DNA from: Chryseobacterium sp. LAM-KRS1 | GTDB taxonomy: Bacteria > Bacteroidota > Bacteroidia > Flavobacteriales > Weeksellaceae | Length of the DNA stretch: 64,000 bases | NCBI RefSeq assembly: GCF_013184525.1 | Contig: NZ_JAAOIZ010000003.1 | Span: 186,001-250,000, forward strand | Direction: 5' to 3' | Part shown: positions 52,462 through 55,476 of the stretch, piece after piece | Numbering within the stretch: position 1 is the first letter of the stretch | How the letters are laid out: every line of letters begins with the position of its first letter | Position numbers and translations under genes: made by a program | Notes under the pieces: generated by a model | What the model saw: the letters and a program-made list of their open reading frames with translations, nothing else | What the model was told of the DNA's origin: nothing | The model's database searches: none

Positions 52462-52614
52462 ATGCTGAGTTTTTATTGTATTTATGATGATCAGCCCACT
52501 CCTGTCTACCCTGAAAAGATTGACCTGGAACTAGCTGGAGATCTTTTTACACCTCTTCAAAATAAAGGAATATTAAGCAGAAAACCAAACAGAGAAAAAG
52601 TCAATGCAGACTAG
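52462..52614 (+). CDS. Small hypothetical protein, 50 residues
   Basis: A short frame, MLSFYCIYDDQPTPVYPEK then a Glu/Leu segment and a basic tail (LSRKPNREKVNAD). I do not recognise it. It sits in the only open space between the YqaE gene and the AraC gene, and its stop overlaps the AraC stop by 4 nt in convergent orientation. The composition is ordinary coding-like, but no promoter was found, so it may be spurious. Confidence 0.35.
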   Translation: MLSFYCIYDDQPTPVYPEKIDLELAGDLFTPLQNKGILSRKPNREKVNAD

Positions 52615-53423
52615 AAAATAATATCCTTTTTGGCTTTCGGTGCTTCCTTCATAATGGAAGCATAAGAAGAGGTAAAAGCAGAAAGACTTTTATATCCTAC
52701 TTTAAAAGCTATTTCGCTTAAGGTATATTGCCGGGTATCGATAAGCTCCACACTCTTTAAAATCCTGATCAATTGTCCGTACTTCTGAAGAGTAATTCCC
52801 GTCTGCTCTTTAAATATTCTCTGTAAACTTCGGACAGACATTTTTGCAAGGTCTGCCATATCGCTCACATTAAAACTTTCCTGATAATGGCTGTTAATAT
52901 AATCACAAACAGGAATTAAGCGATGATCTTCAGGAACAGGAATTTCCAGAAAACGACTTTCATTACAAAAGTTAGGCAAACTATTTAACAACGCTTTTAA
53001 AAAAACGGTTTGCTCCTGATCTTCAGTATCCAGTTGATTCCATTTTGAAGCATATAAAAGCATCTCTTTCAAAACAGGAGGTGCCGCAAAAACATGCACT
53101 TCTTTAAAAAAATCAGATGGTAAAAGCTTTTTAAATAAAATGACCATCAGATTTACTGATCTTGCATCAGAAGTAGTGCGGTGCTTAACTCCGGAAGGGA
53201 TCCAGATCACATGATTTTTAGGAACAAGATATATTTTCTGCTGAATATGCAGATACTGATACCCTTCTTCCACATAAGTGAGTTGGGCCCTTTCATGAAT
53301 ATGCTCATATTCATCATGTTTCCAGTTTTCCTCATACCACACATAGGCATCCTTTGAGATGGTATCATTGTAGAAACCCCGGTTCGTTTCAATCAATCCG
53401 CATTTAAGTTTGGCGTTTTGCAT
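52611..53423 (-). CDS. AraC family transcriptional regulator
   Basis: A 270-residue regulator. The N-terminal 140 residues form a cupin-like sensor (HERAQLTYVEEGYQYLHI, IPSGVKHRT). The C-terminal domain has two HTH units (NVSDMADLAKMSVRSLQRIFKEQTGITLQKY, then TLSEIAFKVGYKSLSAFTSSYASIMKEAP). It diverges from the operon encoding a WrbA-RidA fusion and a DapB-like reductase. The two -7 boxes are only 16 bp apart, so it probably controls that operon and itself. Confidence 0.93.
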   Translation of the reverse strand: MQNAKLKCGLIETNRGFYNDTISKDAYVWYEENWKHDEYEHIHERAQLTYVEEGYQYLHIQQKIYLVPKNHVIWIPSGVKHRTTSDARSVNLMVILFKKLLPSDFFKEVHVFAAPPVLKEMLLYASKWNQLDTEDQEQTVFLKALLNSLPNFCNESRFLEIPVPEDHRLIPVCDYINSHYQESFNVSDMADLAKMSVRSLQRIFKEQTGITLQKYGQLIRILKSVELIDTRQYTLSEIAFKVGYKSLSAFTSSYASIMKEAPKAKKDIIF

Positions 53424-53434
53424 ATTCTTTTTGG

Positions 53435-53442
53435 CAAAGTTA
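53435..53442 (-). promoter_or_regulatory. Candidate -7 box (TAACTTTG) for the AraC gene
   Basis: Minus-strand TAACTTTG, exact match, 11 nt before the AraC ATG. Confidence 0.55.
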
Positions 53443-53458
53443 ATAAAAACGACATTGT

Positions 53459-53466
53459 TAATTTTG
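53459..53466 (+). promoter_or_regulatory. Candidate -7 box (TAATTTTG) for the wrbA-ridA operon
   Basis: TAATTTTG, exact match, 27 nt before the ATG. It lies 16 bp from the opposing AraC -7 box, so the two promoters overlap and compete. Confidence 0.55.
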
Positions 53467-53493
53467 TATCTGAATGTTAGACCTTAAAAAAAT

Positions 53494-54645
53494 ATGAAAA
53501 ATATAAGCAAGATCATCACTGCTTTCTTACTTCTGATAATAACCCAATCTATGATGGCACAAGAACATAAAGCTAGAGTTCTGGTTCTGTTTCATTCGGA
53601 TAATGGAGGAACTTATGAATTAGCAAAAGAAATATCAAAAGGAATTGAAACCAAAGGAAACGTACTGGCTGTAATCAAACAGGTAAAAGCGTCAACCCAT
53701 CCCAAACTGAAAGATATCCCTGTAGCCAGCGTCGAAGAACTCTCTTCCTACGACGGAATTGCATTTGGATCACCCGTTTATTTTGGAAATATCAGTACGG
53801 GAATGAGTGAGTTCTTATCAAAGACTGTTGGATTGTGGAGCTCCCATGCATTAGAAGGAATGCCGGCGACCGTGTTCATGTCTGCCGGAAGTGGTGCAGG
53901 AAAGGAGCTGGCTATTCAGTCTTTTTGGAATAGCCTGGCCGTTCATGGAATGGTACTGGTATCGAATGGTATTCGTGGTGCAGAAAACACAGACAAAAAT
54001 ACCCCACAGGGAAACACCGTTCTTGGAGTAACCAGCCTTGCTTCAGTTAAAAATGTAGAACGTCCCAGCGAAAGTGAACGTTATATTGCCAGATTGCAAG
54101 GAGAAAACTTTGCTAAGATAGCAGCAGCACTAAAAGATACCTTTCCCCATAAGATGACATCGGAAAATGATATCCAAGAAAAAACAGCTAATATCAACAC
54201 TGTCTTAAAACAAAAGCAGATCATTCTTCCACAGGTTCCTAAACCTGCAGGAAATTATCAGCCCTATGTACGTTCAGGAAATCTGGTTTTCATTAACCAG
54301 GTTGCATTAAAAGACGGGAAAATCCTCAATCCAGGAAAGTTAGGCCTTTCACTTACTGAAGAACAGATAAAAGAAGCTACGAAAGTGACCATGCTTAATG
54401 TTCTTTCTGTATTAAATGAGGCCTTGGGTGGTGATTTAAACCGCGTAAAACGTTGTGTACAGCTTACGGGAATATTTAACACAAAAGACGACTACACCAA
54501 ACACGCAGATCTTATGAATATAGCATCCGATCTTACTGTAGAAGTATTTGGAGAAAAAGGAAAGCATGCAAGAGCTACTTTTGGGGCATCATCGATTCCT
54601 GTTAACTCTTCTGTAGAGATTCAGGCCGTATTTGAAGTGGAGTAA
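53494..54645 (+). CDS. Exported fusion of flavodoxin/WrbA-like and RidA/YjgF domains
   Basis: A 383-residue two-domain protein. Residues 1-22 are a Sec signal peptide (ending MMAQ). Residues about 27-215 are a WrbA/flavodoxin-fold domain: the FMN phosphate loop is FHSDNGGTYELA (33-44), and GSPVYFGNISTGMSEFL and AGSGAGKELA follow. Residues about 235-383 are a RidA domain (PYVRSGNLVFINQVAL, NVLSVLNEALGGDL, CVQLTGIF) with the key Arg at 360 (HARATFG) and the Glu of VEIQ. WrbA reduces quinones two electrons at a time; RidA hydrolyses reactive imines. Combining both and exporting them is unusual. It is first of a two-gene operon with a DapB-like gene. Confidence 0.85.
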   Translation: MKNISKIITAFLLLIITQSMMAQEHKARVLVLFHSDNGGTYELAKEISKGIETKGNVLAVIKQVKASTHPKLKDIPVASVEELSSYDGIAFGSPVYFGNISTGMSEFLSKTVGLWSSHALEGMPATVFMSAGSGAGKELAIQSFWNSLAVHGMVLVSNGIRGAENTDKNTPQGNTVLGVTSLASVKNVERPSESERYIARLQGENFAKIAAALKDTFPHKMTSENDIQEKTANINTVLKQKQIILPQVPKPAGNYQPYVRSGNLVFINQVALKDGKILNPGKLGLSLTEEQIKEATKVTMLNVLSVLNEALGGDLNRVKRCVQLTGIFNTKDDYTKHADLMNIASDLTVEVFGEKGKHARATFGASSIPVNSSVEIQAVFEVE

Positions 54646-54675: not shown

Positions 54676-55476
54676 ATGATCAAAATATTCGTTGCAGGGG
54701 CTACCGGATGGGCCGGCTCTGAGCTGAGCAAAGCTATTTTTAAACAAAAGGGAATGCAGCTGGTCGGTGGATTGTCCCGTTCCGGCAGTGGAAAAAACCT
54801 CGCTGAGATCCTTGATTTAGGGAATGAAAAAATTCCGGTATTTGATACCATTGAGAAGGCTTTAGATGCCCTTGACTTCGATGTGTTATTTGACTACACA
54901 AAACCTGATGTTGCCAAAACCAATGTCCTGGCGGCCGTAAAAAGAGGTAAAAAAGTTATTGTGGGAACTTCAGGCCTTACAGGAGAAGATTATGCAGAAA
55001 TAAAAAAAGCTGCCATTGAAAATGATACTTCCGTACTGGCGGTAGGAAACTTTGCGATCACAGTTGTTCTTCTTCAAAAGTTTGCTGAAATTGCTGCAAA
55101 ATATATTCCCAACTATGAAATTATAGATTATGCACATGAGCTAAAAATCGATACCCCAAGCGGAACTGTAAGGGAACTCGCTCACCGATTAGCCCAGGTT
55201 CAAAAACCCGTTGTCCCTATTCCTACGGATCAGATGGTTGGTGAAAAGGCAACGAGGGGAGCAGAAATGGAAGGGGTTCATGTTCATTCCGTAAGGCTTC
55301 CGGGGCATGTTATTGCTGTAGAAACTATTTTTGGGTTAAAAGATGAAAAATTAATCATCAGACACGACTCAGGAACCAGTGCAGAACCTTATGTAAAGGG
55401 TGGGTTACTTGCTATTGAAAAAATAGGCACATTCAAAGGTCTCAGAAGAGGACTGGATACAGTAATGGATTTTTAA
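54676..55476 (+). CDS. DapB-like dihydrodipicolinate reductase family protein
   Basis: A 266-residue NAD(P)H-dependent reductase. The nucleotide loop is VAGATGWAGSELSKA (about 6-20), VGTSGLTGEDY (96-106) and NFAITVVLLQKFAEIA follow, and the substrate loop is DTPSGT (159-164). In E. coli DapB the catalytic pair lies in HHxxK. Here the stretch is YAHELK, so the first His is Ala153, while His154 and Lys157 remain. The true substrate may therefore differ from HTPA. It is 30 bp after the WrbA-RidA gene, away from any lysine genes, and ends at a terminator. Confidence 0.82.
   Translation: MIKIFVAGATGWAGSELSKAIFKQKGMQLVGGLSRSGSGKNLAEILDLGNEKIPVFDTIEKALDALDFDVLFDYTKPDVAKTNVLAAVKRGKKVIVGTSGLTGEDYAEIKKAAIENDTSVLAVGNFAITVVLLQKFAEIAAKYIPNYEIIDYAHELKIDTPSGTVRELAHRLAQVQKPVVPIPTDQMVGEKATRGAEMEGVHVHSVRLPGHVIAVETIFGLKDEKLIIRHDSGTSAEPYVKGGLLAIEKIGTFKGLRRGLDTVMDF

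Follow-up and report, generated by a model that had tools for sequence, protein, structure and literature searches.

A putatively exported protein joining a WrbA-type flavodoxin domain to a Rid1-type domain in Chryseobacterium and relatives

WrbA proteins (TIGR01755, NF002999; NAD(P)H:quinone oxidoreductase type IV; e.g. E. coli WrbA and PnpB) are tetramers that reduce quinones with NAD(P)H. Rid proteins mainly guard cells against 2-aminoacrylate and other imines arising from PLP enzymes and amine oxidases, a chemistry that is usually cytoplasmic. In the accessible text of docking work on the benzoquinone structure of WrbA, His133 ranks among the key catalytic-site residues, and Trp98 is placed at this site in two docking papers, His133 in one (PMC12247152). 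The Rid1 subfamily of Rid/YjgF/UK114 (PF14588) includes PA0814 and ACIAD3089, both with measured imine deaminase activity according to the available part of the source (PMC5619798), and, by similarity, Atu1372. In the accessible portion of a comparative paper on the Rid family, the RidA arginine is described as required for imine hydrolysis, replacement of the tyrosine or the glutamate of Salmonella RidA as having little effect, and Rid proteins as typically trimeric; Rid–Rid fusions are reported there, with no flavodoxin fusion among them (PMC4433059). Our search of the open-licence literature retrieved no report of a WrbA–Rid fusion or of an exported Rid protein. Here, we describe a gene through which these two enzyme parts, usually separate and intracellular, would be exported as a single chain in some Chryseobacterium-type bacteria.

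The gene lies at 53494..54645 on the plus strand of the analyzed stretch of Chryseobacterium sp. LAM-KRS1 DNA (64 kb; hereafter the window), part of a 4.6-Mb genome in 27 contigs, and was delineated by ORF calling, domain profiles and its leader. Its product of 383 aa comprises a predicted Sec-type signal peptide (residues 1–23; 53494..53562, +), a WrbA-type flavodoxin domain (residues 27–214; 53572..54135, +), a variable linker (residues 215–242; 54136..54219, +) and a Rid1-type domain (residues 243–383; 54220..54642, +), an order of elements that the first-pass annotation had read from the sequence and that the leader and the profile matches bear out. The flavodoxin domain matches solved WrbA (phmmer, E 1.6e-33), shares 36–41% identity with enteric WrbA structures in Foldseek alignments, and exceeds the Pfam cut-offs of both FMN_red and Flavodoxin_5, while the protein falls below both curated WrbA equivalog cut-offs (TIGR01755, 110.6 vs. 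132.5 bits; NF002999, 125 vs. 141 bits). PF14588 is matched by residues 243–374 with 68.1 bits (cut-off 35), and the Rid domain aligns to PA0814 (E 1.3e-15) and ACIAD3089 (E 4.5e-10); the cut-off for TIGR00004 (Rid family detoxifying hydrolase) is missed (26.4 vs. 106.25 bits). Both the WrbA and the Rid fold were recovered by Foldseek. An AlphaFold model built from 41 alignment rows reached a pLDDT of 71.5 (below 50 in two of three FMN loops) and is too weak to judge active-site geometry.

A scan of genome contigs revealed relatives at 72 genome loci (going by record titles, 66 in Chryseobacterium, four in Flavobacterium and two in Sphingobacterium). One Sphingobium plasmid, pYGP1, has a match at 60% identity that spans at least 80% of the window protein, the sole such match among 72,556 plasmid records. 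The Sphingobium copy is annotated as 'NAD(P)H:quinone oxidoreductase', a label that conceals both the Rid domain and the predicted export. The nearest named relatives belong to Chryseobacterium (88 and 86% identity). Full-length fusions were present in 17 of 148 sampled family genomes, nine of 20 listed same-genus genomes and six of 395 phylum genomes, figures that mark the gene as a patchy accessory gene. Seventy-eight copies were called, of which 76 are in frame (75 distinct sequences) and serve as the reference for family counts; left out were L051, with a frameshift in the leader, and L065, with one in the gene and its leader visible in another frame. L068 lacked an ORF match longer than 250 residues and stands outside the 78. 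The two frameshifted copies are from Chryseobacterium and may reflect assembly error or decay.

Across the 76 fusions, 119 alignment columns are invariant, 59 for each of the two domains plus Met1 (split by hand), with none in the linker, a distribution indicating that both domains are strongly constrained. In the Rid tree, the 13 fusion Rid domains included (of 76) form a single clade (support 100/100), within which those of Flavobacterium, Sphingobacterium and the Sphingobium plasmid are nested in a branch with Chryseobacterium (96/90), a topology that fits horizontal transfer.

The leader of the window copy, MKNISKIITAFLLLIITQSMMAQ followed by E, is N-terminal and hydrophobic, and ends in MMAQ directly before the predicted cleavage position. 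Leader calls in the fusions were made from composition and conservation. A leader of 26 to 30 residues with a hydrophobic core precedes the first strand in all 76 in-frame copies, and the Sphingobium and distant Flavobacteriaceae fusions likewise carry one. Residues 2–26 contain no invariant column across the 76 copies, as a signal peptide would show. Sec export of the fusion into the periplasm is thereby well supported at the sequence level, and the first-pass view of the N-terminal 22 residues as a signal peptide agrees with the leaders of the 76 in-frame copies.

Within the WrbA-type domain, the FMN phosphate loop (S35-x-x-G-G-T40) is intact, S35, G39 and T40 being invariant in the 76 fusions; the FMN loop singled out in the first-pass annotation is hence retained among homologs rather than lost. 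Invariant, too, is W115, the counterpart of E. coli Trp98 (76/76). At the Arg79 position, however, the fusions have Tyr (73 copies; Y96 in the window) or His (three), and at the His133 position Val (73; V150 in the window) or Ser (three), leaving none of the 76 with the WrbA residue at either site. Of the catalytic-site pair Trp98 and His133, the former is thus kept and the latter replaced, whereas the four standalone WrbA proteins read (L105, L106, L156, L168) retain, by eye, both Arg79 and His133. Taken together, the fold, Trp98 and the FMN phosphate loop link the fusion to WrbA; what sets it apart are its export and attachment to Rid, scores below both curated cut-offs, the changes at Arg79 and His133, and a stretch from the second strand to the second loop that is at least eight residues shorter. 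A flavodoxin fold with an FMN phosphate loop is evident from the sequence and FMN binding is putative; plain WrbA NAD(P)H chemistry seems unlikely.

The Rid domain shows a similar mixture. Y255, R360 and E375, equivalent to RidA Tyr17, Arg105 and Glu120, are present in all 76 fusions, confirming the key arginine that had been noted in the window copy. In contrast, every fusion lacks the Ser/Ala-Gly loop glycine (0/76; between N268 and Q269 in the window copy), with Asn replacing the preceding Ser/Ala, but this glycine is found in all 82 standalone Rid1 proteins compared (39/39 exported, 43/43 cytosolic), a non-random set of top-scoring matches. Likewise, a second acidic residue near the Rid C-terminus, Glu or Asp in 81 of the 82 standalone proteins, is Gln in 76/76 fusions. 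Relative to the Rid1 subfamily, with which it has in common the PF14588 match and the Arg105, Glu120 and Tyr17 equivalents, the fusion therefore stands apart by the lost loop glycine, its export and the attached flavodoxin domain. The missing glycine could abolish imine deamination, so that such an activity of the fusion's Rid domain is possible, but not assured. With the Rid loop glycine lost in 76/76 and WrbA Arg79 and His133 each replaced in 76/76, the retained RidA arginine gives an incomplete picture, and plain quinone reductase and iminopropionate deaminase functions, the parent activities named in the first-pass annotation, should not be assumed.

These replacements argue against a simple sum of the two parent activities and suggest a specialized substrate instead. 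At a little below an even chance, our favored reading is that the fusion represents a regulated periplasmic flavin and Rid enzyme acting on quinone-, quinone-imine- or imine-type compounds. An AraC protein would switch the gene on in the presence of a particular compound, Sec would export the chain, and FMN would be loaded in the periplasm, outside the cytoplasm. The flavin domain would then accept or donate electrons, with cytosolic NAD(P)H excluded as direct donor. The Rid domain would hydrolyze a C=N bond, either in a substrate shared with the flavin domain or in the latter's product, and the two sites would be coupled. Quinone-imines or aminophenol-type molecules and other amine-derived reactive compounds would be the likeliest substrates, since both steps, redox and imine, would then be handled by a single chain. 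The periplasmic quinone or imine role suggested in the first pass stands with respect to export and to the presence of both domains by sequence, but has to be reconciled with two active sites that are remodeled in 76/76 copies.

The same residues bear on a different division of labor, in which the exported chain would serve as a flavodoxin-like carrier of electrons or as a quinone reductase, and its Rid domain as a trimeric scaffold or ligand-binding module devoid of deaminase activity. The loop glycine gone from all fusions yet kept in all standalone Rid1 proteins, the exchange of Ser/Ala for Asn and of the second C-terminal acidic residue for Gln, and the long stem of the fusions in the Rid tree (0.93) would each be in keeping with this idea. 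Against it, the site Arg, Tyr and Glu are unchanged in 76/76 copies, and 59 invariant Rid columns exceed what a bare scaffold would need. We consider this explanation unlikely overall, albeit the most serious competitor of a two-site enzyme.

Regulation of the gene is suggested by its surroundings. A divergent gene for an AraC-family regulator (52611..53423, –; AraC_binding and HTH_18 by Pfam) accompanies 67 of the 78 called copies, or 65 when restricted to plus-strand loci among the 76. This neighbor is lacking at the Sphingobacterium and Sphingobium loci and at three distant ones from Flavobacteriaceae; at L009, L045, L047, L051 and L054, no such gene was called. The two genes of the window are separated by a 70-bp control region (53424..53493) with a conserved block and predicted promoter boxes: TTTTTG and TAATAAAAA recur exactly in 15 of 17 aligned intergenic loci, chosen from 65, the block being missing from L037 and inexact in L004. 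Two elements of this region, TAATTTTG at 53459 (+) and CAAAGTTA at 53435 (TAACTTTG on the minus strand), fit TAnnTTTG, which we take to be the Bacteroidota –7 box. Such boxes thus face both directions in the control region, and 34 occur on the plus strand of the 64 kb.

RidA is reportedly a chlorination-activated chaperone. By extension, the fusion might be a stress-type periplasmic protein whose Rid domain works as such a chaperone, while the flavodoxin domain reduces oxidants, e.g. quinones. Export would put the protein where hypochlorous acid arrives first, and RidA is mentioned in a hypochlorous-acid review (PMC7464077). A surface-charge effect would, however, hardly need a strictly conserved Arg, Tyr and Glu, and the dedicated AraC partner (67/78 loci) points to a specific inducer, leaving this scenario quite improbable.

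Downstream of the fusion gene, after 30 bp and on the same strand, lies a second dapB paralog (54676..55476, +); another dapB, distinct from it, resides on contig C1 of the window genome. That same-strand, 30-bp spacing and the existence of the other dapB could be taken to mean that the paralog is a functional partner in an operon handling a cyclic, dihydropicolinate-like imine. Yet dapB adjoins the fusion in just three of 78 loci, namely the window and its two closest relatives, and the encoded protein starts straight at its domain, with no export signal. We hence exclude DapB from the conserved unit, and a partnership with the fusion is more doubtful still than the stress-type role. By eye, many Chryseobacterium loci harbor a MocR-type regulator on the opposite strand, a cupin and a DapA-like protein downstream of the fusion. 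Among the 78 loci, neither a co-directional neighbor common to all lineages nor a conserved metabolic neighbor besides the AraC regulator was found.

The last alternative, a true start at Met20 or Met21 that would make the protein cytosolic, would place MMAQEHKARVLVL, resembling the usual WrbA start, at the N-terminus and could draw on the frameshifted leader of L051, but is very unlikely, the least probable of all explanations considered: in eight of 76 leaders, Met does not occur beyond residue 6, and six of these also lack any ATG, GTG or TTG there, leader lengths change in whole-codon steps, and most leader variation falls on third codon positions. Between similar pairs, leader differences at codon positions 1, 2 and 3 numbered 1045, 823 and 1635 (464 non-independent pairs), and this third-position excess is the codon pattern of a translated segment.

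The first-pass annotation had called the export of both domains unusual, a view that the comparison with standalone genes upholds for one half only. Four out of four standalone WrbA genes read (L105, L106, L156, L168) look cytosolic, with no leader at the domain start; no exported standalone WrbA was thus seen among these four, the weaker matches L107 and L108 remaining outside the count. Rid export, in contrast, appears not to be rare in Bacteroidota. A Sec or lipoprotein-type start was detected in 36 of the 82 standalone Rid1 genes by a home-made rule (37/83 including the window fusion, L173), or in 39/82 once three assigned by eye (L097, L110, L150) are included. In the remaining 43, the first ATG lies 8–19 residues ahead of the domain, resulting in a two-peaked pattern overall. 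The 82 genes combine the 24 best single-domain loci with 58 of 60 further stretches, the other two (L156 and L168) being WrbA. Going by these sequences, it is the exported WrbA domain, and not the exported Rid domain, that is the odder half of the fusion.

In the Rid tree, 35 of 38 exported standalone rows fall into one clade of 36 rows (100/99), which adjoins the fusion clade (joint node 98/95), with the reservation that bootstrapping had not settled and that a false grouping of the long fusion stem with PDB 3d01 is possible. Exported standalone Rid1 proteins of Bacteroidota thus share with the fusion a leader (of Sec or lipoprotein type) and a Rid1 domain with the site Arg, but are single-domain, keep the loop glycine and, in a few cases, are encoded near Tat-type PLP-enzyme or amine-oxidase genes. 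Five PF01042 matches exist in the window genome, the fusion included. Two Rid-family proteins of this genome that appear exported by eye, L170 (G000:C3:329239-329589; Sec-type) and L171 (G000:C3:250306-250617, just beyond the window end; lipoprotein-type), have no catalytic Arg.

Of the 39 exported Rid1 genes, 36 had their neighborhoods extracted, as did 20 of the 43 cytosolic ones; no Rid ORF was called in three of the 36, leaving 33. Two sets of ten selected neighbors were scanned with Pfam, and exported loci were compared with controls by running four BLAST probes against every ORF. Three of 33 loci with exported Rid1 encode a SelA-like PLP enzyme whose start is of twin-Arg type (one start by eye), and one encodes a Tat-type amine oxidase; neither probe enzyme occurred in the other 29, and the same probes gave no match in the 20 cytosolic control neighborhoods. 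A Tat pattern was present in 5/295 ORFs near exported Rid1 (among them the L178 amine oxidase and the two SelA-like proteins encoded at L199 and L201), vs. 0/203 in controls and 0/39 around fusions. In the window genome, no SelA match was detected, and both amine-oxidase matches resemble cytosolic desaturases by their N-termini, so that no local periplasmic source of imines was found there. Small as these numbers are, they connect some of the exported Rid1 proteins with exported enzymes that produce enamines or imines.

On this basis, Bacteroidota might possess a periplasmic enamine/imine branch in which PLP enzymes or amine oxidases would be exported alongside Rid proteins, with the fusion as its redox-linked form, i.e. 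a flavin-dependent quinone-imine or amine enzyme with a rebuilt Rid site, a generalization that we regard as tentative and rather unlikely. If true, an exported flavin-linked Rid protein, exported standalone Rid1 proteins and a few Tat-type PLP neighbors would extend imine and enamine chemistry to the periplasm, and the fusion would provide one protein with which to test it. In this scenario, the fused chain might also build a large cage-like particle, as Rid proteins are typically trimeric and WrbA is tetrameric.

The clusters of L177, L199 and L201, all from Bacteroidota, consist of an exported Rid1 gene and the SelA-like PLP enzyme with twin-Arg-type start (assigned by eye in L177), and possibly constitute a periplasmic amino-sugar or amino-acid module. 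L177 and L199 each encode a further Rid protein whose start looks twin-Arg-like by eye; L199 contains, in addition, two amidohydrolase-type genes with Sec-type leaders. According to the accessible part of its description, the GlcNAc1A pathway of Pseudoalteromonas is intracytoplasmic and comprises the aminoacylase OngB, the deaminase OngC and the RidA-family protein OngD, whose role is unknown (PMC9537276). Its combination of a RidA-family protein, an amidohydrolase-type enzyme and a deaminase resembles the exported set of L199, but, unlike the fusion, the pathway is cytoplasmic and made of separate proteins, with no flavodoxin. In L178, a lipoprotein-type Rid1 gene is followed after 37 bp by the gene of the Tat-type flavin amine oxidase (L178:2501-3952).
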